From the NCBI GenBank assembly GCA_025201365.1, contig JAIXMF010000022.1, positions 1 to 64,000 on the forward strand: 64,000 bases of DNA, in the 5' to 3' direction. The first letter of the stretch is position 1, and each line of letters starts with the position of its first letter. The position numbers were made by a program, and so were the translations under genes. Below, in pieces: positions 3,802-64,000 of the stretch. This stretch comes from Syncephalis plumigaleata. Lineage: Eukaryota > Zoopagomycota > Zoopagomycetes > Zoopagales > Piptocephalidaceae. Under the pieces are notes generated by a model that was given only the letters and a program-made list of their open reading frames with translations, was not told the DNA's origin and searched no databases.

Positions 3802-4516
3802 TTATGGTGCCAATGCAACTGCTTTAATTTCAATGAGCAATCGATTAGGCGGTTTGCATGGTAGTTGTTTTACTGCAACAGTAGTACGCGTTGGACCTGA
3901 TCATCACCATTAATAACAATTAGATACACTACTAGTGCTACTACTAACCTGTTTCTGCGTCGAAATACTGATTGTAAACCTATATTTACTACTATTAGAT
4001 GATGTCAAGTAGTCTATTCGCTTGATTACCTCGTTAAAACCATCATAGTCGGCCATGTCAATTAAGAATACAGTCAGATCCACGAGATGTTCGAGTGATG
4101 CGCCAGCCTCTTGTAAAATCACCTTAATACTAATACACAGATGCTTAATGCTTGCACTAGAATAGCTCAGGCGTATACTATTACTTTTCAAAGATGGCCT
4201 TCGTTTGTGCCCGAATATCAAGCTCCCATACTCCTGGTTCACGCTCTACAGCCTAGTAATCATACAGCAAATAGCTAGTTATCAATCTCGACCAATAGCG
4301 CAACAATAAATATTATCTTACTCCTTCATAACTAAGTGGCAATAGAGTTAGTTCACTGAAATGGTTACTATACTCATTGACTGCTTACGTGTTATCTGGA
4401 CGACGTGACGAAATACCCGACACGTAAATGTAAGGACCAGCACGACGTGCGTGTGGATAATGTGCCAATGAACCGGCACGGTCACCTAGAATATACGCTT
4501 GACCGTTAGAAGACAT
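3802..4516 (-). CDS. RidA/YjgF-family enzyme, 2-aminomuconate deaminase type
   Basis: Small imine/enamine deaminase. I chose [11 protein letters not shown] as the start because the longer upstream frame (from 4627) is only a hydrophobic low-complexity stretch. The spliced protein contains [21 protein letters not shown], the hallmark start of the 2-aminomuconate deaminase branch. It then has [57 protein letters not shown] and [10 protein letters not shown] before a stop at 3802. The Arg of GPTRTTVAV is the conserved active-site residue of RidA proteins. At least four short introns are needed, and the one splitting NE|VYN is unambiguous. The second exon (about 4327-4347) is the least certain. 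In tryptophan catabolism this enzyme acts after ACMSD, whose gene lies 9 kb away, and KMO is 3 kb away on the other side. Confidence 0.8.
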
Positions 4517-14781: not shown

Positions 14782-16184
14782 AGTGAATGAGTCAAGAATA
14801 TATATATAAGCTCAAGTAAAAGAAAAGCAAGTAAGTATATAAAAGGAGAGAGGCGAGGGAAAAAGAAAGAGAATCAGTAATGAAATGGTAAGTCTTTGAT
14901 CCAATATAATTAGAAGTAATAGCGGTCACTTAAATACAGGGTTTTTCAACCGATTAATACAGTTGCTGTTTATTAATAAATAGATTTGCACAATTGTTAG
15001 CGCCATTATCACATTGCTATTATTATTGAGTAGTTGTCATGGCCCTAGCAATTGAGGGAGGTGTTAAATAGATAAAAGTTGTAAAGATAGCATGACGGAA
15101 TAGCTGCTCTTGGGAATGTGTATGTTAAAGTGAAAGAGGAAGCAAGTGGAATGCGAATGACACGAAGAAGACGCGTATTACTGAGAAAGTAAAAGAACTA
15201 GCTAGCATATAGGTAAGAGGATGTAGACGTGTGTTGTTTACTGACAAGTGGAATGTAGTTGGCACAAAGAAGACGGCGTTGGTAAAGAAGTAAAGAAAGA
15301 GAAACAACAATGAAATAGATACTTAAAATGGATTAGTAAATCATTAATGTCATTAGACACTAATAACAAACATGTCAATTAGTACTAGTGCTTACTGATT
15401 GCTAGTAATAAATGAATAAACTAAATATATACTTATTGCTCCGATCTATTAATTAATATAAGCATAATGATCATACAAGTGTCATTCATTATCATGACAT
15501 CTACATGACATGTTCACTTGTATGTCATCTATCATTGCGCAACCCATAGTCGCTTGACGTGATTGATACTGATTGCAGTCTATCACGATATGTCATCAAA
15601 TAATCCCACGACCACATGGATATATCAATGAAGCCTGAGCATGCTTGATGGTACCAATAGCGTGATACGACGCGCATATCCGACCAGTAAGATTTGTTAA
15701 TGCATGTCACAGTCTTTGGTTGGCACCTCATGCGTTGGTTGTTGCATCAGTGCTATTGCCAGTGAGCATAATCATGATTGAATGGACGATATAGCTGACT
15801 GGTTAATTAATTTACCATTCAAAACGGACATACTATGAGTATACTGTAGCAATACAACATGCATTGAATGAACACTGCATTTGATTCTAATGAAGAAGAC
15901 ACGCTGGGGCCATGTCTACAGGTCCCATTTAGCAGTACTATTTTACACGGATGATATCAATATGCATTGCATAAACCAGTTTACCCATATTGCCATTGCT
16001 TTATTATCAAGCTACTATCAAGTCTATCCTTTGACGACGCAGTAATACTACTAGTCTTCATTCTACCGGCAGATTTAATCACATTCCCAAACAGACCGTT
16101 CCCAATTTTATATTCTGTTTCTAAACGCACATGCCACTTTCTATCGCTCTATAGATTATTATAATTGTATATATTTACTTCACA
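14782..16184. other. Intergenic region, no gene recognised
   Basis: About 1.4 kb between ACMSD and the first seven-helix gene. The first 500 bases are A/G-rich with scattered short frames that look random. It contains one copy of a dispersed repeat (15472-15690, listed separately). The last 200 bases are CT/TA-rich and presumably hold the promoter of the gene at 16185. I see no tRNA or other structural RNA. Confidence 0.4.
15472..15690 (+). repeat. Dispersed repeat, copy 1 (inverted relative to copy 2 at about 59.2-59.4 kb)
   Basis: From CATACAAGTGTCATTCATTA onward, through CATGACATCTACATGACATG and GACGTGATTGATACTGATTG to GCGTGATACGAC, this stretch matches the reverse complement of 59180-59405. 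By eye the identity is about three quarters over some 220 bases. The element is rich in ATGACAT/ATGTCAT words and contains CGTGAT...ATCACG, so it can fold. There is no coding capacity. It is probably a small non-autonomous element, but the family is not identifiable. Confidence 0.65.
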
Positions 16185-17165
16185 ATGCCTGTCATCGACT
16201 ACAATAATCCCGATGATATCAAACTAATTAAAGCGCTTGAAGAAAAGTATGGCATGCCGTTTGATGACATGGCCAAACTCAGCATCAACGACTTTTACAT
16301 GAGGGCCTCTGGAGATATTCCTGAACAGCGCAATCGATTATTGGGAACACAATTCGAACTAGTTTTCGTTCTACTCATTCTCAGTTTGTTTAGTCGGAAC
16401 CTCATCAAGTTATCTAAAGCGCTAATATTAAACCCACGCTCACTGCTTTTATGGTGCTCTTTCATATCCTCATTCTCGGGTGCGGTCACCGAAGGCACTA
16501 TTCTAATAGGATTAACAACAGGTGGTTCCAATTGCAACATATGTCTTTGGATACAAACAGTCGGTATGAGTTTGTCGATGTTCCCCAACAGCATAATACT
16601 GCTTCGTAAGGCATACCTAATGTCACTCAAGAAGAATCGAGTATTATATGTGGGCATTCCATTGATCATGACACAACTTGCAAATCCAATAGTTTGGATA
16701 CAATACTGTACAGTTGTTCCAGAAGTCTACTCGGCTGTGTCGCTTACTACTCGCAGGTTATATTGTGGTTTTGGGCCGGTGTTAATATTCCACATAAATA
16801 TTATTCTCTGTTATTTTCTGTCGTAGAGCCTATAATCAATACGTGATATTTGGCTCCGATATCTGGAAACGACTGATGCGTGAAGGCATACAAACAATGT
16901 GCTTTGTCCTATTATGCAACCTTGTCAGTATACTATCATAGTTTTCTCCAGTAATACCGTGAATAAGGACGTGTTCATTGTTGTAGATTGGTAAGCAACG
17001 ATAATAATAATGATAAATGCCACCTAACATATCATGATTAGGGTCGTAGTTACAACAATACTCGCGAATCATTGCTGCAACAAGAAGATTAAATCACCTA
17101 CTGACCGTAAGCCTAAGACGGAACATCTGTTGCACGTATCACAGATCGCACGGCACATAGTCTAG
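16185..17165 (+). CDS. Seven-helix membrane protein, family copy 1
   Basis: Member of a local paralogous family (other copies at 34.0, 35.3, 37.0 and 38.4 kb). The N-terminus is short and hydrophilic with a conserved aromatic word (here DFYMRAS, elsewhere EYW). Several hydrophobic helices follow, and the family motif after the fourth or fifth helix reads ILLRKAYLMSLKKNR (elsewhere LLERAYL...R.R). A later loop has RAYNQYVIFGSDIWKRLMREG, matching YRQYKRYGDQCWKKLAREG in copy 2. The last intron splits the Trp codon of a conserved DW, as in all copies, and a 40-residue basic tail ends at 17165. Two single-base frame breaks lie near 16820 and 16940. The topology suggests a receptor-like protein, but no named receptor family was recognised. 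Confidence 0.6.
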
Positions 17166-35315: not shown

Positions 35316-36321
35316 ATGACCAATAGCACACCAGGTTATGGTGAACTCAACGTCATTGACTATCTCGATGCAAATGATGGCTCACTAGTCGATTTGCGAG
35401 ACAGATATCACGGTGTTTGCGTGCAACTTCTGATGGTGATAGTGATGTTCTACATCTTCGTATGCAATTGTATTCAATCAGTTAAAATGGTTATGAAACG
35501 TCCCGGTCAAGTTGCTCCTTGGAGTTGCACTGTTGTGGCGCTGTCCGGTGTAATATACATGGGGTATTCACCATACCACTAAATCTACCGAATGGTCCGA
35601 CTTGCAGTGCGGTCTCTAAAGCCGCTCCCGTTTGCTTAACGATAGCCATCATGGGCACCAACACACTATTGTTGGAGCGGGCGTACCTCGCTCATCAGCG
35701 TAGTCGTCTAGTACTCACACTCGGCGTGGTTATCATCCTAATCTCGCCCGTATTTATCGCAGTGTCCTTAATGACGCTTATTCCGAATTTCAGCCATTCG
35801 GCCGGTTGCTACATCCAGTATCCGTCGTACTATCCGTATGTACGCCTCGCCGTTGACATTCCTGCCAATATCGTCTTTTCCATCTCATTTATTATCGTTA
35901 TTTATCGACAATACAAACGATACGGCGATCAATGCTGGAAGAAATTGGCGCGAGAAGGTGTCATAACAATGATGCTTGTGATTATATCGAGCATCATATG
36001 TGCCATTGGAAATGCAGTCGAAGTATTGGGCTCGGCAAGCGATATTCTTTTTATTATTGATTGGTAAGTACGAAGCAATACAATGGCTAATCATGTCTAA
36101 CGCATACATACATATATATATACTTTAGGGTACTCATATCAACTTTACTAGTGGGTAGCACGTATCGTATTGAGATCCTAAGGGAGAACTCCAATAGTGA
36201 TAGCGCTAATCATCAGAGGAACAAGCGACAAAACACTCCCAAGCGGTACCAACGATATTCCGGCGTATGCCAACCTACAGGCTTCTCCTCGCATACTAAT
36301 TTATGTTCCAAAACCATGTAG
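35316..36321 (+). CDS. Seven-helix membrane protein, family copy 2
   Basis: N-terminus MTNSTPGYGELNVIDYLD with a possible N-glycosylation site (NST), then seven predicted hydrophobic helices. Landmarks are NGPTCSAVSKAAPVC, NTLLLERAYLAHQRSR, a Cys-Tyr loop (SAGCYIQYP), DIPANIVFSISFIIVIYRQYK, CWKKLAREGVITMMLVI and an IDW whose Trp codon is split by the last intron (36064-36128). The tail is polar and Asn/Arg/Ser-rich. One frame break near 35562 is explained by one missing G. The conserved Cys residues in two outer loops, the basic inner loops and the polar tail resemble a G-protein-coupled receptor, but I recognise no described class. Confidence 0.65.
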
Positions 36322-36962
36322 CGCAATCTCAATGACAGGCCTTGATTTACATACGTCTGTCAACGTGAGTCATCCCAATTGTATTTTGTCATTATCATCA
36401 CCATCATCATCACCATCACCATCATCATCATTAGCGTTAGCGTTAATGTCATTAGTGCTTGCGCCATTTCTTGTTATTGTTTTTTTTAATTCTTAGTGTT
36501 TTTTCTTTTGTAACTCAACCATTTCTAATAAAGTCAATAGAAACAATCGTAAAAAGCGAGTGGATAGTGGATGGTGGTGGTGGTGGTGAATGCTATATCG
36601 CAGCATAAGACGACACGTGTACCTATAGGATAGTTGACAATTTCAAGTCTAAACTTGTTTACACGCATCACAAAGGACCCAGTCAAAGCACATGTGATCT
36701 ATTTATGAATGCTGCCCTTCAACTCACCGAAAGCAGCTATGTAAGCTAATGATGATGATGATGATAACGATGATGGTGATTATTGCATCTTATTCATTTC
36801 TTGGCCTTTTTGTTATCATCATCATCATTAATACCATTATTAACACCATTACTTCTATTCTAATTAGTACTGCAACAAGCATTGTTATCCGCCATATCAT
36901 CATCATCATCATCATCATCATTAATATGACAACGATAATTAACGACGAGGCAGCAGGCAGCA
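36322..36962. repeat. ATC/GAT trinucleotide-rich spacer between two receptor-like copies
   Basis: Contains interrupted (ATC)n at about 36396-36435, (GAT)n at about 36750-36775, and (ATC)n at about 36818-36832 and 36895-36926. Long open frames here (runs of Met or Ile) are products of the repeat. The promoter of the copy at 36963 must lie inside this repeat-rich stretch. Confidence 0.6.
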
Positions 36963-37914
36963 TGAATGGATTTGATTACTGGGCGACAACCGAGAATCTG
37001 AGTATTCACGAAATTCAGAAAGATCCATCGGTGTTCACATACAGCTTGTAGTTGCAACTGTTTTCCTAGTTGTTACCTTACGAAATCTATACCATACCAT
37101 ACGATTGCTCATTCGATTCCCGTATAAATTATCCGGCTGGTGTTGCATGTACGCGATGACGACGGGTACATTGGTAACTGGTCTCATAGGAATCCCGCAT
37201 CACTTTCCTTATGGCGCTCCGTGTAAGGCGGTCATTTGGAGTGGATTCTTATTAGTGATAACTACGTCGTTCTCTCTCAATTTGATCCTAATAGAACGAG
37301 CCTATTTAGCATGTCAACGAAATCGAAAAGTGCTCATTCTATGCTTGATACTTAACGTTTTACCATTAGTCGCCCATACTAGTTCGCTATCATCACGCGC
37401 AATTATCATTTCGGTCCAGCGAGCGGTTGCTTCACCTTTAGCCAACCATTCATGTATTATCTTCGAATTATATTTGATACACCTCCAAATTTGTTGCCGT
37501 CATTGATATTTATTAGGGTTATTTACCGCCAATTCAAGAAACGAGGCGTAAAGGCATGGAGGCGACTAGCACGCGAGGGAACCATAGTAATGCTACTGGT
37601 TGCGTTCTCAAATATGATCGCCATAGTCGTGTTTGCTTCCGGTATACTTAAGAACCTGTCTATAATTGCTTACAAGTTAGATTGGTAAGTTGTAATTATA
37701 ATGTTGTCACCCTATAATAATAGTAATAATAATATTCAGGCTATTCACATCTACCGTGTTGGTGGAGAGTACAATCAATCTATCCAATACCGTGCAGCGT
37801 ACTACAACGACCGATCCTTCTAATCGTAGGTCGCCACCCCTCGTTGATTCCACATTCTCGCTGGCCATTCAAACGGAATCACAGACCAATGGCTGGACAG
37901 CTCTTTCGTATTAG
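36963..37914 (+). CDS. Seven-helix membrane protein, family copy 3 (several frame breaks)
   Basis: N-terminus MNGFDYWATTENLSIHEIQ, then GVHIQLVVATVFLVVTLRN, PYGAPCKAVIWS, LNLILIERAYLACQRNRK and DTPPNLLPSLIFIRVIYRQF, with KAWRRLAREGTIVMLLV. The last exon begins after the intron that splits the DW Trp codon (37686-37739) and ends at 37914 with a Thr/Ser-rich tail. Two or three single-base frame breaks (near 37030 and 37425) interrupt it. As these match the window-wide pattern, I would not call it a pseudogene on this evidence. Confidence 0.6.
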
Positions 37915-38424
37915 TATATGACTATGCCCACACATGAAATCTTTGTATTCTTCGCATTCCATTATTTATTTTTAATTTAATGTTCGCTTGATAAAAATAA
38001 TAATCATGTAAACTATTATATCAATCCACTAGCTGGAATAATTCTATTTATAATCAGACATAACTTTACATTAGCTCCTGAAACTACTAGGATGCATTCT
38101 ACATTCGTGGTTATGTATCAGTAATAGGCAATTAGTCTATTTGATAATGGCACCATAATCTATACGTTGATTCGGAAGAAATGCCCTATCCAGTCTCCAG
38201 GTTACACGATTGCACGTTACAGAATGGTTCACTTCCTGTTAAGTATGCGCCACACATGGTGTTATTCGGTTTATATGGCATGGACTGCGGTCGAACTTGA
38301 TTTCTGCATCCCTTGTATCATATGCTTTGACAGTTCAAGCACACTCATCCTCTTTCCGTATCACTCCCCGCCTACACTCATTCCCTTCTTGTACTTTGCA
38401 TTCCTTTTTCCTTTTCCTTCAAAT
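37915..38424. other. Intergenic region upstream of receptor-like copy 4
   Basis: AT-rich, ending in a CT-rich leader (TTCCTTTTTCCTTTTCC) right before the ATG at 38425. An in-frame extension upstream of that ATG exists (from 38167) but has no counterpart in the paralogues, so I excluded it. Confidence 0.4.
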
Positions 38425-39420
38425 ATGGATACGCCGCTGTACGCGCCTAATATCAATGCGTTCGAGTATTGGACGAGCGTGAACGGGCAAGACATTAAAA
38501 CTATACAGGCGTATTCTATCGGCGTGCACATCCAACTTGTGGTGTACATCTTCTTTTCCTTGGTGTTTGTTCGAAATACACTCCGTAGCATAACCATTAT
38601 CCTCGTTGATATCCGTAGAGTGGCATCATGGTGTAGTATGTTCTCGGCATTGTCCGGTGTATTATTATTCGGCGTCATGGTTATTATGCATCAACTCCCG
38701 TATGGACCTTCGTGCAAAACGATTTCACTATGGTCCACCATAGGTATGGCCATATCCAATTTCTCCATCAATACCGCGCTACTCGAACGAGCGTATGTAG
38801 TACGTAGGAAAAATAAGAAACTCCTCGCCTTAGGACTATTCCTTAACTTTATTCAACTTATCGCCTATTTCTTCATTCTATTCGTTGAGCTTCAATACGT
38901 ATACCGTCCATCCGTAGGATGCTACGCTCTTTACCCGAAATACGGACCTTACTCTCGATTTCTGGTGGATACACCGCCAAGTCTAATACCCTCCATCGTA
39001 TTATCACCACCATCTACCGGCAATTTAAGCGATACAAACGCGATTGCTGGAGAAAACTGGCGCGGGATGGTATTATAACCATGATGCTGATCATCCTATC
39101 GAACCTTCTATCCACTATCTTATTGATCCTAGAAGTTGCCGGATCCTTTTCGATGATAATATTCATGGTTGATTGGTAAGTAATACTGCAATTGCTGGAA
39201 TAGTATATTCATCGGTTTTTTATATCCGAATCACAGGGTAACAACCTCGACCATTCTGATTGAGACTACCATTAAAATTAGCAAGACTAGATATCTAATC
39301 TCGAGTCAGGGTCCACTACATAATAATCATAATGGAGGCGACAGGTCAGTATTCCCCATGTCATCCCTTGTTCTTTCTGGGGAAACGACCACACTGAACT
39401 ATACATGTTTATCACGGTAG
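38425..39420 (+). CDS. Seven-helix membrane protein, family copy 4
   Basis: Best preserved copy. MDTPLYAPNINAFEYWTSV is followed by GVHIQLVVYIFFSLVFVRNT, RRVASWCSMFSALSGVLLFG, QLPYGPSCKTISLW, NTALLERAYVVRRKNKK, a long hydrophobic helix, and SVGCYALYPKYGPYSRFLVD. After one frame break near 39000 it continues TIYRQFKRYKRDCWRKLARDG and ends the core with MVDW. The final intron (39176-39237) again splits the DW Trp codon. The cytoplasmic tail is Ser/Thr/His/Asn-rich and ends CLSR. The shared intron position and landmarks prove common descent with the other copies. Confidence 0.7.
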
Positions 39421-57918: not shown

Positions 57919-58613
57919 GTAGCATTGTTAGCATGAAGCATGTTTCTGGAATTCTTCCTTCATGTCTGCTCCTAGATGGACATCCAATGTTGCTGAAATA
58001 GATATGGCTCATGTGGTTAGCTGTATGTTGTTATTACATGCTAGCACTTGTTCATATCATGAATTAATGATTTGATTGTTAATATCGGAGAAGCTAAGCA
58101 ATAAAGCTGAACTGCTGTAACATCAAACGCTCATTAATGATAGTGTGAATAAAATCGTCCTTCAACATAATGCACTTATTCAAAGAATAGCCAAGTTTAT
58201 TAGGAGATTATTACAGCTATTCTCGACTATTACTAGAATAAACAGTTTGCTTTTGTGTTTGATCTAATGGTTTCATACTAGTTATACACACGTCGTATCG
58301 TTCTTGTTTCCCAGATGATTATTATTATTGTGCTATCAACGTAAACTCACTTCAATATTACTTACGTTTATTGAATATATTCATGATGCTTTAGCTATGA
58401 ATGTAAGCAAGCAACTACTCGATAATAATCACTAAGCAGGAGACATGAGTACAGATAACATCATCTATGGCATTGCTCAAACATTCCTGAAAGACAGACA
58501 CATTTTTATTTTATCAACAATGATACAGATATATCCTTACTAATTAGCATCAACCGGATAACACGTGTATCCATTAGTAGTCTCTGCTTCAAACAAACGA
58601 TGCTAATTACCAG
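57919..58613. other. Intergenic region, no gene recognised
   Basis: AT-rich with scattered stops in all frames. No homology to the oligopeptidase fragment that follows and no structural RNA seen. Confidence 0.35.
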
Positions 58614-59022
58614 ATAGGAGACAACATGCTAAATGATTATAAAGCCATTAGATCATACTCACCCTACGAGAACATCCAGCCTAATGTCGTATATCCCAAC
58701 ATACTAATGACCAGTTATTCCGACGATACATTTGCACCATACTGGGGTGAGTGTGATCAATCAGCCTACTGATTAATTCGTACTAACTAATGCCACTTAC
58801 GATAGATGGTGCTCGAAATGCAAAGAGCAGCACTGATCCACGTACGATTGTTATGGAAGTGCGTGATGCTAGCGATCAAAGTAAGCAATTGCAACGTAGC
58901 ATATGTATGCTGTATACTAACAAGTCATTCTAGATGATTCATACCTTGATCAAAATGCCGCTACATTAGCATACGCTATTGGCAAGCTAGGAAAGGCGGT
59001 CAAACCGTTGAATTCTGCTTAA
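58614..59022 (+). pseudogene. C-terminal remnant of an oligopeptidase B (S9A peptidase) gene
   Basis: Three exons (58614-58746, 58806-58880 and 58934-59022) splice in phase. They give IGDNMLNDYKAIRSYSPYEN, IQPNVVYPNILMTSY, SDDTFAPYWDGARNAKSS and a helical end, TLAYAIGKLGKAVKPLNSA. The block ‘SYSPYEN…YPxxLxTxxxxDxxxxYWxxA’ is the C-terminal signature of oligopeptidase B, and the Asp of the catalytic triad can be aligned. The beta-propeller and the nucleophile Ser are absent upstream. The region that should hold the catalytic GHGG-type His reads ASDQNDSYLDQ. It therefore looks like a truncated, catalytically dead relic that still keeps splice signals. Confidence 0.6.
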
Positions 59023-60579
59023 TACATGAATTATTTGTTGATCAATAGGAGTAAAGCTTACTTTTCTATTCTGTTCTTACATTGTTGAACATGCATACAT
59101 TAGAATGATAATGTCAAAATTATCTCATTTGATTTACATGTAGCGAACGTGTATGTGTGTGAGGGAATGATACTTGAACGATGGTCATATTAACTGGATG
59201 AATGTCGTATCGCATTATAGATACCATCGAGTATGCTCATGTTCCATTGACACGCCCATATGATTGTGGGATCATTCAATGACATGTCGTGATGTATTGC
59301 AATCAGTATCAATCACGTCAGTTGACAATGGAATGAGCAATGATAGATGACATACAAATGAACATGTCATGTAGATGTCATGATAATGAATGACATTTGT
59401 ATGGATGTGACAATCAAGTCAGAATAATAATTACATGCACGCTCTATCATTGGAAGCTATCGTGTATTGTTCGTAATTCGCACGTATTTCTATGCTACAT
59501 GAGCACAATATCGGCTACTCATCCTAATTTGCCATCACTGTCCAACTAGGCAGATATGCTTCCTATTATTACCTAGTCACTTCTTAATCGACTTCATCGA
59601 GCAGCCGACTATCCTCATCACACATGCATGTAATACGCATAACAATCCGAGCATAGCATAATGTCTAGTGTTAGTTATATGTGCGGCTAAGGAGTTAAAA
59701 CAAGTGATGATGGGAATGAGTACTTTTATTGACCGGGAAGAATGATGTCGAACAAATAGGTGGATGTAAACGAGCTACGTCAGTTCCTAGACTAATGATA
59801 GTTGCACTCGATAATTACAAGCAAATAAACACTCCCTCCTTCGGCAAATACTCATATTCCCCACCTTGCTTACATTGGACTAACCAATCCGATCACTTTG
59901 AAAGCAACGGACATCATGAAACACTCGTGCATTGTTGTATGCTTGCATTTGTGCCATTGTATTGCAGCTGACGGCTACTTCACTCCTCATTAAATGGTTA
60001 GCTATTCTAATGATTTAGCCCAGACTTCTATTCGAAAATGAAATGGCTGTAATACGCTCTGTTGAACAGGTATGTTTTACTCGAACTGAGGTTAGCTGTA
60101 TAACCCTTGACCAGCAAATGGTCATACAGTTCCCTCATATGTGGTTGGCAAAACGTATGAACAAAGCCCATGGTGATGGACATTCCGGTTTTCTTCTTAC
60201 AAAAACCGGTTTATTTGAATACGTCCTGCTATTTTTGGACAATGGTGACTTCTATCACACCACCACCAAAGTAATCCCAATACGAATGTTTCTCCGTGGA
60301 ACTAGCAGGGAAAGGAGAAGTGGAAGTGACGAGTATGGAGGAAATAGTGGATAGCAGCATAGGATTGGTTACAAGATCCTGTGAAAAAGAATCCCAGGTG
60401 AAGGAAATGAGGAGAGAAGGCCTTCTTGGTGCTAAAACAATGTAGTAAAATGCGCGATGCGGCGTTACAACATATCGGCATATGGAGTAGATGCTTAGGG
60501 GAATTACTCGCGTGTATCATGAATGGCACCACGATAGCCATCATCATGCTTTCCACCTAAATATTTAGCATCATCTCGG
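59023..60579. other. Intergenic region with two unassigned frames and a dispersed repeat
   Basis: Contains repeat copy 2 (59180-59405). Two plus-strand frames, 59729-59971 (80 codons) and 60043-60354 (103 codons, e.g. VIQFPHMWLAKRMNKAHGDG), have a fairly protein-like composition but no recognised family, and may be gene relics. The last 200 bases form the upstream region of the micro-exon gene. Confidence 0.35.
59180..59405 (-). repeat. Dispersed repeat, copy 2 (reverse orientation)
   Basis: Reverse complement of 15472-15690 at about three quarters identity. Shared words are CATGTCATGTAGATGTCATG, ACATACAAATGAACATG, CAATCAGTATCAATCACGTC and GTCGTATCGCATTATAGATA. The element is non-coding and partly self-complementary. 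With two copies in 64 kb it is probably present throughout the genome. Confidence 0.65.
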
Positions 60580-60586
60580 CTATAAA
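60580..60586 (+). promoter_or_regulatory. TATA box of the micro-exon gene
   Basis: TATAAAT lies 137 bases before the ATG at 60723. It is followed by a CT-rich stretch (TTCTACTCTACACTCTTCTAC and similar, about 60630-60690) of the kind that precedes other genes in this window. Position and context fit a core promoter with transcription starting near 60610-60640. Start sites were not observed. Confidence 0.55.
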
Positions 60587-60722
60587 TCAAGCACTTTTTG
60601 ACACACTCGACTTGTCGCCTTCATATTCACGCTTCTACTCTACACTCTTCTACTCTGCTCTCACTACTTTCTACTTTCGTTCTAGTCAGCTGAGCTATCG
60701 ATTCCACTAGGCCAACATCAAC

Positions 60723-63700
60723 ATGAAGTTCTCTGCCGTTACCGCTATTGCCGTCGCCGTTGTCGCTCTCACCAGTCTGGTCGCCGTTGAAGCTAGTCCC
60801 GCCTTGGTCCGTCGTGGTACGTCTGACCGTGATCCTACCCATTGATGTACTAATCGTAGTCTATTGTTTCATTGTTCACCGATGATTAGCGAAAGATCGT
60901 AAGTTCATGTATATTAAATGGTTGTTTTAACATGCTAATCACACTATAATGTTTATTCTGCCTATTAATTGGTTAATAATAGCTCGTAAGCTATTCTATT
61001 GATCATAACAAGCACTATGCTAATCATAGTATAATGCTTATTCTGCCTATTGATTTATTAGCTCCAGGCAGTAAGCTATTCTATTAACCATAACAAGTAC
61101 TATGCTAACTGTAATATAAATCAAAATCATTTGTGATGTCATTTACAAGAATCCGTAAGTTATCATTCTGATCGTAATAAATGAAATACTCACTATAATC
61201 TGTCACACAATTCATATGCCTATCTATTACAGTGCGTAGGTTACCATTATGATTGTAATCTATGAATGTACTAATCACGCTATGGCGCATGATCCACATA
61301 CGCTCCTGTATGATAGCATGTAAGTAATCATCCTGACCGTAATGAGTAGATGTGCTAATCATAGTATGGCACACGATTAACATATGACTGTGTACGATAG
61401 ACGGTGAGTAATCATTCTGACTGTAATATATGAATGAGTACTAATCACGCTATGGCACATGCTCCACAAACCTTTGTATACAATAGGACGTAAGTTATCA
61501 TTCTAGCTGTAGTGAATAAATGTACTAATTGTAACGTGGCACATGATTCGCATGCGTTCCCGTATGATAGCAAGTAAGTTATCATTCTGATGGCAATAAA
61601 TGGCGTACTAATCCTAATATCGCACGCGATCCACACCTGTTCCCGTATAACAGGCTGTAAGTTACCATTTTGGCTGTAATCTATGAGGTACTAATTATAC
61701 TATGGCACGCGATTTCCTTACGTTCCCGTATATCAGCCTGTAAGTTATCATTCTGACCGTAATGAATGAGGTACTAACTACCTTGTGGCACACGATTTGC
61801 ATGTATTTCTATCTAATAGCATGTAAGTTACCATAATGATCGCAACGAATGGATGTACTAATCACGCTATGGCATACGATTTGCATACGTTCTTGTATGA
61901 TAGTATGTAAGTAATCATTCTGACTGGGATGTATGAATGAGTACTAATCACGCTATGACGCATAATCCGCACATATTCTTGTATGACAGCAAGTAAGTCA
62001 TCATTCTGATCGTAATAAATGAGGTACTAATTATGGTATGGCACACGATTAACACATGGCTGCGTATGCTAGTGGGCAAGTAAACATTTCGGTTACAACC
62101 TATAGTATGCTAACCTTAGTATGACATACGATCCATGTATATTCCTAAATGGTAGTATGTAAGTAATCATTCTGACTGTAACGTATGCGATACTAATGAT
62201 AATGTGACACACGATCCACGTATGTTTCTGTATGACAGTCTGTAAGTCATTATTATGACCGTAACGAACGAGATACTAATTGCATATGACACATGATCCA
62301 CGGATGTTTCTGTATGATAGTGGGTAAGTTATCATTTTGATCATAATATATGGATGAGTACTAACTACAGTATGTCTTACAATCCTCGTATGCTCCTATA
62401 TAATAGAGAGTAAGTCATTATTCCGATCGTAATGAACGAGATACTAATTGCAATACGATCCATAATCAATACGTGTTTTCGTATGATAGGATGTGAGTAA
62501 TAATTCTGATCGTAATCTATGAATGTACTAATCATGTTATGACACACGATCCTCATACGTTCTTGTATGATAGGAAGTAAGTTATAAATCTAATTCAATG
62601 TACAAGGTACTAATAATTACGATATGACACATGATCCATACGTATGTCCCGGTATGACAGTGTGTAAGTTATCATTCCATTTATAATCTATGGTGTACTA
62701 ATTATGATTGCCACTCTATCCATACGTATATCTACCTATCACAGTGCGTAGGTTACCGTTATGATCGTAATGAATGGATGTACTAACTATGATATCGCAC
62801 ATGATCCACATATGTTCCCGTATAATAGATCGTAAGTCATCATTCTGATCATAATATCAGGTGTACTAATCACATATACCATATAATTCACGTCTGCTTG
62901 TGTATGATAGAGCGTAAGTAACCATTTTGACTGCAATGAATGAATGAGTACTAACTACAATGACACCAATCCACGTATGTTCGTGTATGATAGAACGTAA
63001 GTAATCACTCTAACTGCAATGAATGAGGCGCTAATTATAGTATACCACATGATTCACGTATGCCTGTGTATGATAGGGCGTAAGTAATCATTTTGATTGC
63101 AATAAATAAGGTACTAATCAAGCTATGACATATGATCCACGTATGTTTCTGTATGATAGAAAGTAAGTTACCACTCTGATTGCAATGAATGAGGTACTAA
63201 CTACGATATGACACATGATCCACGTCTGCTTGTGTACGATAGTGGGTAAGTTATCATTCTGATTGTAATGAATGAACGAGGTATTAATCACTCTATGACA
63301 CACGATCCACATATGTTATCGTATGGCAGTGGGTAAGTTACCATTCTGATTATAATGAATGAACGAGGTACTAATTATGCTACGGCACATGATTCACGTA
63401 TGTTTTTGTATACCAGCCTGTAAGTTATCATTCTAACTGTAATATATGAATGTACTAATCACGCTATGGTACATAATCCACGTGTATTCCTGTATGATAG
63501 GACGTAAGTCATTATTCTGACTACAATGAATGAATGTACTAATTGTAGCGTGGCTCATTACCACATACGTTTGTGTATGATAGAACGTAAGTAATCATTC
63601 TGACTGCAATGAATGAGGTGCTAACTACAATGTGACACATGATCCACGTATGTTCCCGTATGATAGAAAGTAAGTTATCATTCTGGCAGCAACCTATGAG

Positions 63701-64000
63701 ATACTAATGATAAAATGCCACATGATCCATATATGTTTCTGTATGATAGGTGGTAAGTTACCATTCCAATCGTAATGTATGGCGTACTAACCACAGTATC
63801 GGCGCATGGCCAACATACATTTGTGTATAATAGGAAGTAAGTTATTATTTTGGTTATAATATACGATGTACTAATGATAGTATGACACATAATCTCCATA
63901 CATTTATGGATAACAGTGCGTAAGTTACTATTCCCAATGATAACGTATAAGTGTATTGATACTAATACGGCACATGATCCATGCATATTCTCGTACGATA
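60723..64000 (+). CDS. Secreted Cys/Trp-rich peptide gene built of single-codon exons (incomplete at right edge)
   Basis: Exon 1 (60723-60816) encodes a signal peptide, MKFSAVTAIAVAVVALTSLV then AVEASPALVRR, with a dibasic Kex2-type site; it ends in phase 1. Exons 2-5 are 60890-60898 (9 nt), 60983-60985 (3), 61062-61070 (9) and 61150-61154 (5). They give AKDPPPGKS, and the 5-nt exon restores phase 0. From 61233 on, 33 exons of exactly 3 nt follow every 82-87 bases, the last at 63917-63919, so each is one codon. None is a stop. The first 17 read CHTDQAPHYQWYSWRDE; Cys falls at exons 6, 23, 24 and 38, Trp at 16, 19, 30 and 31. Every intron has GTAAGT or a near variant (one GC-AG), a CTAAY-type branch site (weak in intron 5) and a terminal AG. 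Splicing is deduced from sequence only; the function could be an effector or defence-type peptide. Confidence 0.75.
61155..64000 (+). repeat. Tandem array of about 34 related introns (unit 82-87 bp)
   Basis: Each unit runs GTAAGT, then a variant of TATCATTCTGA, then TAATGAATGAGG, a branch-like TACTAAT or TACTAAC about 40 bases before the 3' end, then GACACATGATCCACGTATG and TGTATGATAG. It is followed by three variable bases before the next GTAAGT. Units differ at perhaps a quarter to a third of positions, so the array is not recent. The splice motifs are almost invariant and the three bases between AG and GT are freely variable. Introns 2-4 of the same gene share the branch region (GCTAATCACACTATAATG type) but belong to an older or diverged subgroup. 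The array continues beyond the window. Confidence 0.85.

Follow-up and report, generated by a model that had tools for sequence, protein, structure and literature searches.

The genome of Syncephalis plumigaleata (Zoopagales, Piptocephalidaceae), which belongs to a genus described as mycoparasitic (PMC6784888), appears to contain coding genes in which most exons consist of a single codon. We assign a probability of about 0.86 to this reading, in which the genes would have one codon per exon, be spliced by intron definition, encode secreted peptides and grow by cassette duplication. One of these genes stands at the end of the window (the whole stretch of 64,000 nucleotides that was analysed), and the array found there is part of a gene family, not a single gene. 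The sequence-only reading had treated each triplet of the array as a single-codon exon, and this is supported by the absence of stop codons, a fixed 3-nt spacer, the closure of phase and the reproduction of one deposited protein.

A series of predicted one-codon exons in the window

The features of the window gene and its continuation on contig C135 are as follows.

60723..60816, + strand: exon 1 (94 nt), encoding the predicted signal peptide MKFSAVTAIAVAVVALTSLVAVEA followed by SPALVRR with its dibasic RR
60896..60898, + strand: 3-nt exon ATC, phase 1, from the best-scoring splice chain
60983..60985, + strand: 3-nt exon CTC, phase 1, from the splice chain
61062..61070, + strand: 9-nt exon CTCCAGGCA, from the splice chain
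61150..61154, + strand: 5-nt phase-restoring exon AATCC, from the splice chain; later 3-nt exons are whole codons
61233..63919, + strand: 33 one-codon exons with introns of 79-84 nt between them (from flanks, shuffles, splice chain and Tandem Repeats Finder)
Starts of one-codon exons 1-11, + strand: 61233, 61317, 61401, 61487, 61571, 61654, 61737, 61820, 61904, 61990, 62073
Starts of one-codon exons 12-22, + strand: 62156, 62239, 62321, 62407, 62490, 62574, 62661, 62745, 62829, 62911, 62994
Starts of one-codon exons 23-33, + strand: 63077, 63160, 63243, 63330, 63417, 63501, 63584, 63667, 63750, 63834, 63917
63920..64000, + strand: intron crossing the window end; the gene carries on along contig C135
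Contig C135, starts 64002, 64088, 70295 and 70378, + strand: further one-codon exons past the window
Contig C135, 64151-70265: LTR retrotransposon of 6,115 bp in the intron after codon 64088, beyond the window end
Contig C135, 70451-70459, + strand: 9-nt exon holding the stop, from the splice chain
Contig C135, from 70549: last exon, from the splice chain

Direct reading of positions 58500-64000 showed AG directly 5' of all 33 triplets. The sequence-only reading had described 33 consecutive 3-nt exons at a spacing of 82-87, none of them a stop, and these claims are borne out: each of the 33 lies between an AG and a donor, the spacing holds over the 33 positions and no triplet is a stop codon (0/33). 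Its count of at least 33 is extended by the sequence past the window, with which the splice chain contains 37 one-codon exons in phase 0. The recurrence of AG-NNN-GTAAGT that it gave is literal in 28 of the 33 units, and the remaining five donors are GTGAGT (two), GTAGGT (two) and GCAAGT (one). It was also right that the array is read in whole codons, although the exons before the array, which it had summed to 120 nt, total 114 nt (94+3+3+9+5) in the best chain. The two sums, both multiples of 3, differ because acceptor 60890 was taken instead of 60896, which makes the ATC exon 9 nt instead of 3 and keeps the frame either way. Another acceptor for the 9-nt exon at 61062..61070 would leave only GCA (61068-61070).

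The pattern AGNNNGTRAGT matched 35 times on the two strands of the window, and 30 of these matches belong to the 33 listed triplets; shuffled sequence gave an expectation of 3.7 and a maximum of 8. Tandem Repeats Finder reported the array as a repeat of period 83 with about 33 copies at 67% match.

The window also holds a 438-residue ABC-F frame that is 100% identical over its full length to a deposited S. plumigaleata protein. Several open frames with hydrophobic stretches and a shared ERAYL-/RKAYL-like motif (35486-39078 and 16155-16826) perhaps represent a local receptor-like family. Searches of the window with Rfam, at gathering cut-offs, and for tRNAs found nothing.

A gene family across the genome

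Paired AG-NNN-GTAAGT proved abundant in the 32.6-Mb genome, with 1,798 occurrences (976+822) vs. 16 for the reversed control pattern (14+2). The first triplet of a pair was never TAA or TAG (0+0, compared with 12+1 in the reversed-pattern control) and never TGA (0+0), and TAC or TAT occurred there 41 times (34+7). About 48 stops would be expected among the 1,798 pairs by extrapolating the rate of 13.7 per 516 obtained from triplet composition. Pairs with a 4-nt spacer stayed at the control level throughout the genome (2+2 vs. 2+1).

A genome search for the signal-peptide exon gave 150 scored matches out of 166 candidates, a family count in which some small contigs may duplicate one and the same place. 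Splice chains of at least three introns were found at 26 of the 30 loci of the signal-exon search; no chain was found at the other four (L034, L035, L041, and L043). Chains were sought by trained weight matrices for splice signals, without a frame rule. Forty-seven models were built, of which 33 were kept for the counts and 14 were dropped: L023, L029, and L045 as repeats of places already counted, L031 and L016 as too short, L037, L047, and L059 for odd long exons, and six (L021, L034, L035, L041, L043, and L061) that had no chain. L031 would have complied with the phase rule, and L029 and L016 represent a single place. Exon 1 of L047 is 110 nt, and L037 and L059 each have a long exon containing a stop. 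Four loci (L012, L013, L015, and L019) lie outside the 47 because their signal exon was missed by the search pattern.

Nearly all of the kept models share one layout: a 94-nt signal exon, some exons of 3-24 nt, one exon of 5 or 2 nt and finally a row of as many as 41 one-codon exons. Exon 1 was 94 nt in all 33 models, which leaves one base over, and in 32 of them the next exon with a length not divisible by 3 had 5 or 2 nt and restored the frame. In 30 models no other exon after exon 1 had such a length. The exception was L039, whose phase was closed in an earlier model but not in the final one. Three-nucleotide exons made up 601 of the 695 internal exons, and about 55 more measured 6, 9, 12, 15, 24, or 57 nt (9, 33, 6, 4, 3, and 1 exons, respectively). 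The reading frame of 17 of the 33 models closes within an exon of 9-16 nt, and 15 of these finish with TAAGCR (L039 excluded); in most of the remaining models, the modelled DNA stops before the gene end.

The 516 phase-0 triplets of these models represent all 20 amino acids and include no stop, where about 13.7 would be expected from column composition. Column shuffling of the 516 triplets (5,000 shuffles) gave a mean of 13.6 stops and a minimum of 3, and no shuffle reached zero. Pyrimidines (C or T) occupied the third position of 187 of 200 fourfold-degenerate triplets, as they did at 643 of 695 such positions of the signal exons, a bias to which the avoidance of a new AG before GTAAGT could contribute; third-base purines were found in 70 of 192 triplets with a middle A and in 4 of 94 with a middle C. 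Synonymous usage of the triplets correlated weakly with that of the window's long open reading frames (r 0.37); the correlation with intron trinucleotides was about the same (r 0.35), and the measure therefore argues neither way.

Arrays were also found beyond the main family. Four 3-nt exons follow a signal-like stretch in L019 (about 4066-4490), where the introns are unlike the 83-bp repeat. L013, on the minus strand, carries a longer and more diverged array of 3-nt exons with some larger ones, and L012 and L015 each have a short array of the common type, preceded by an altered signal exon. The one-codon architecture therefore probably does not depend on a single repeat. One frame of L013 ends in QHLDLFG...FEK.QKD, much like part of the deposited protein P0130.

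Splice signals and a proposed mode of splicing

Among 516 introns, the donor was GTAAGT in 434, the branch site matched CTAAY in 456 and the acceptor was TAG or CAG in 512; the donor and branch-site scores are partly circular because the chains were found using those motifs. The branch A lies at a median of 42 from the acceptor, and intron length varies, with a 5-95% range of 76-83. An ordinary 73-nt intron of the ABC-F gene in the window likewise runs from GTAAGT to CAG. By these signals the splicing chemistry looks ordinary, and it is the gene architecture that looks new.

On general grounds, exon definition is impossible when an acceptor and the next donor stand 3 nt apart. In the proposed mechanism, single codons would be separated by spliceosomal introns of an ordinary, short kind (about 80 nt), and splicing would be intron-defined and probably proceed 5' to 3'. 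Each step would add one codon onto an upstream exon that is already long, so that a 3-nt exon would never need to be recognized alone. Recursive (ratchet) splicing removes a long region stepwise via joined acceptor-donor sites, and its ratchet points leave no exon behind. Removal would be stepwise in the S. plumigaleata arrays as well, but here one codon would remain per step. If the one-codon exons are joined in the cell as predicted, the array probes how far intron-defined splicing reaches without exon definition.

Predicted peptides and deposited proteins

Translation of the spliced message would give a signal peptide, then a short propeptide, in most cases with RR at its end, and then a small peptide for secretion. 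The signal peptide of exon 1 was judged from the look of the sequence across the family, and RR closes this exon in 32 of the 33 models, RH in L011. Cleavage at RR would be Kex2-like, and the peptides, if secreted and processed in this way, may act at the interface with the host fungus.

A C-x(n)-CC-x(n)-C pattern was found in five of the 33 models, many of which end early with the available sequence. The window gene has C-x(16)-CC-x(13)-C, L025 has C-x(12)-CC-x(9)-C and L052 has C-x(6)-CC-x(11)-C; the two spacings are x7 and x9 in L033 and x4 and x8 in L030. Only the first part of the pattern is present in L049 and in L042, which is closely related to L030. Peptides free of cysteine include that of L048, with a His/Gly run, and that of L017, with an Ala/Lys run. 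A Pfam scan of seven sequences gave one sub-threshold match (CBM_14, E 0.0087, for the L025 peptide), and the one peptide tried against PDB had no match.

Kex2-processed repeat peptides of fungi combine a signal peptide with dibasic sites, at which small peptides are released. In L021, on the minus strand, a signal peptide similar to that of the family and, after it, repeats of RRDHVPPAAFRSLE lie in one open frame, which looks like a Kex2-type repeat peptide precursor.

Two protein searches with family peptides (7 matches with the peptide of the window gene as query and 9 in the other search) recovered 13 deposited family proteins, all from S. plumigaleata. Among the 13, P0121 (BDF22DRAFT_685685, 92 residues) was reproduced in full and P0125 partly. 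A six-frame genome search matched only residues 1-33 and 69-92 of P0121 at its locus, about 3.9 kb apart. The missing residues are present as single codons in the chain from C362:262196 to 258233 on the minus strand, and the protein is given exactly by 39 three-nucleotide exons and a 5-nt exon when six exons are skipped, the sole solution found when up to nine skips were permitted. The chain has six internal exons with a non-GTAAGT donor, and four of these belong to the skipped set of six (hypergeometric P about 0.001). The P0121 model may be an ab initio prediction. Its skips fit both skipping in the cell and a predictor that favours strong sites, and P0121 is therefore not counted as RNA evidence. 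P0125 includes 14 residues, NPINGSMDYVYWKP, that are given by the L062 chain. P0128, from a contig of 23,224 bases, is repetitive and SV/SA-rich with the family signal peptide, and is possibly another one-codon array.

Evolution of the codon units

The codon is the variable part of an otherwise conserved unit. Exon columns carried 0.03, 0.09, and 0.24 bits, whereas splice-site columns reached 2.0 and the flanking intron columns were conserved. In 86 pairs of exons with similar flanks, drawn from different genes or units, the proportion of differing sites was 7.5% in flanks and 36% in exons, and 31 of the 86 codons differed at two or three bases vs. 0/86 and 3/86 for control triplets inside the flanks; the low divergence of flanks and controls partly comes from choosing pairs by flank similarity, and the pairs are not independent. 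Eight matched units of L025 and L065 differed at 20 of 553 intron sites and at 9 of 24 exon sites.

Close paralogs gave another pattern. Fourteen 3-nt exons of the window gene are identical to those of L040 (42/42 bases), whereas the introns are 92.5% identical. In ten pairs with intron identity of at least 0.92 (L025/L065 excluded), three of which stem from one trio of near-identical loci, five of eight single-base codon differences were synonymous, where a fraction of 0.196 was expected (P about 0.01). With L025/L065 added, synonymous changes were five of nine single-base differences, plus three larger ones. The synonymous excess suggests purifying selection on the codons of close paralogs, but a comparison of units of the same index with similar flanks counts against it, since exon differences there were no rarer than flank differences (0.033 vs. 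0.012 per site).

Arrays would grow and shrink via tandem duplication of intron-plus-codon cassettes, each cassette gained or lost changing the peptide by one residue without shifting the frame, and after such growth the codons would diversify. Two complete codon units separate L050 from L051, and units 7 and 11 of L048, which have identical flanks and the same codon, are an apparent trace of cassette duplication. A more far-reaching and tentative reading, to which we give slightly less than an even chance, is a codon-cassette system in which each residue would be a movable intron-plus-codon unit. Secreted peptides would then gain, lose or exchange single residues with no frameshift, and diversification would concentrate on the codon within a conserved unit, driven either by very strong selection or by some targeted process. 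Exon skipping may add further variants.

Alternative explanations

The 83-bp repeat reported by Tandem Repeats Finder, and introns that are interrelated along the columns examined, would be expected of a non-coding tandem satellite in which splice-like motifs stand by chance and no codon-by-codon splicing takes place. We regard this as highly improbable, as a satellite does not account for the lack of stops in either the genome-wide pairs or the modelled triplets, for 4-nt spacers at control level, for a triplet that is the least conserved portion of the unit, for a single special exon that restores phase in nearly every model, or for the L019 exons, which are flanked by introns unlike the repeat. 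The stop-codon and spacer-length tests led us to reject plain satellite DNA and point to a reading-frame constraint. A different possibility accepts the exons as real but has them included in varying subsets, with in-frame skipping yielding a mixture of peptides from each gene. One-codon exons are symmetric, and P0121 can be matched only by skipping six exons, of which four have non-GTAAGT donors. That model may, however, be an ab initio prediction, and the splice signals are mostly strong (within chains sought with these motifs); we consider the use of varying subsets improbable.

The alternative that concerns the window gene itself is that this copy is decaying although its family is live. 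The LTR element in one of its introns has a target duplication of CATGA and is read as gypsy-like from its gene order, and its 184-bp LTRs are identical, so that the insertion is probably recent. The intron that holds it is now longer than 6 kb, and the gene may either remain spliced, with that one long intron, or be silent. The complete exon chain is nevertheless still present, and its exons agree with those of L040 at every base compared while the introns have diverged; decay of this copy seems rather unlikely to us. For the family as a whole, one-codon exons joined by intron-defined splicing remain the preferred reading.

Comparison with known systems

The micro-exon genes (MEGs) of schistosomes, as described in PMC10526429, have 10-20 very short exons, mostly of 15 bp, with introns of 0.1-5 kb; the range of exon sizes is given as 6-81 bp in the text and 3-81 in the abstract, and the genes give splice variants. 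In these descriptions they share with the S. plumigaleata genes secretion, a signal peptide and many short, mostly symmetric exons (PMC10526429), and the S. plumigaleata genes likewise have, by the look of the sequence, a signal peptide on the first coding exon. They differ in that the S. plumigaleata exons are nearly all 3 nt after the first, with up to 41 in phase 0, and in that the introns are about 80 nt and mutually similar and the genes are those of a fungus; exons mainly of 15 bp and introns of 0.1-5 kb were not found. MEG proteins were not among the matches of the two protein searches with family peptides, all of which were from S. plumigaleata. Aphid bicycle genes are described as fast-evolving putative effectors with many microexons, more than 100 in a "megacycle" gene (PMC9168663). 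They are genes of insects and belong to another protein family, and their description there does not include one-codon cassettes. Neither MEGs nor bicycle genes, as described, combine a one-codon unit with uniform short introns and tandem cassettes.

Isolated 3-nt exons have been reported elsewhere. The fungus Dactylellina haptotyla has two in a duplicated lipS gene (PMC5639578), and two studies, one on a plant and one on the mouse, use the term "3-nt microexons" (PMC8831610, PMC7821500). As reported, these are few per gene, neither dozens in series nor in tandem cassettes. According to a paper of 2024, functional microexons were previously undescribed in filamentous fungi (PMC11121469). We found no description of serial single-codon exons in the open-licence PMC papers searched, in agreement with the sequence-only reading, which had known of no gene with one amino acid per exon in series, and we rate the gene architecture as new. 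Such genes are easily overlooked by annotation and by short-read alignment, so that more may exist in related fungi. If the reading is true, these genes would be the first family described, to judge from the open-licence papers searched, in which an amino acid equals an exon over dozens of exons, and they would suggest a route by which secreted peptides of a parasite could evolve through the gain and loss of single codons.
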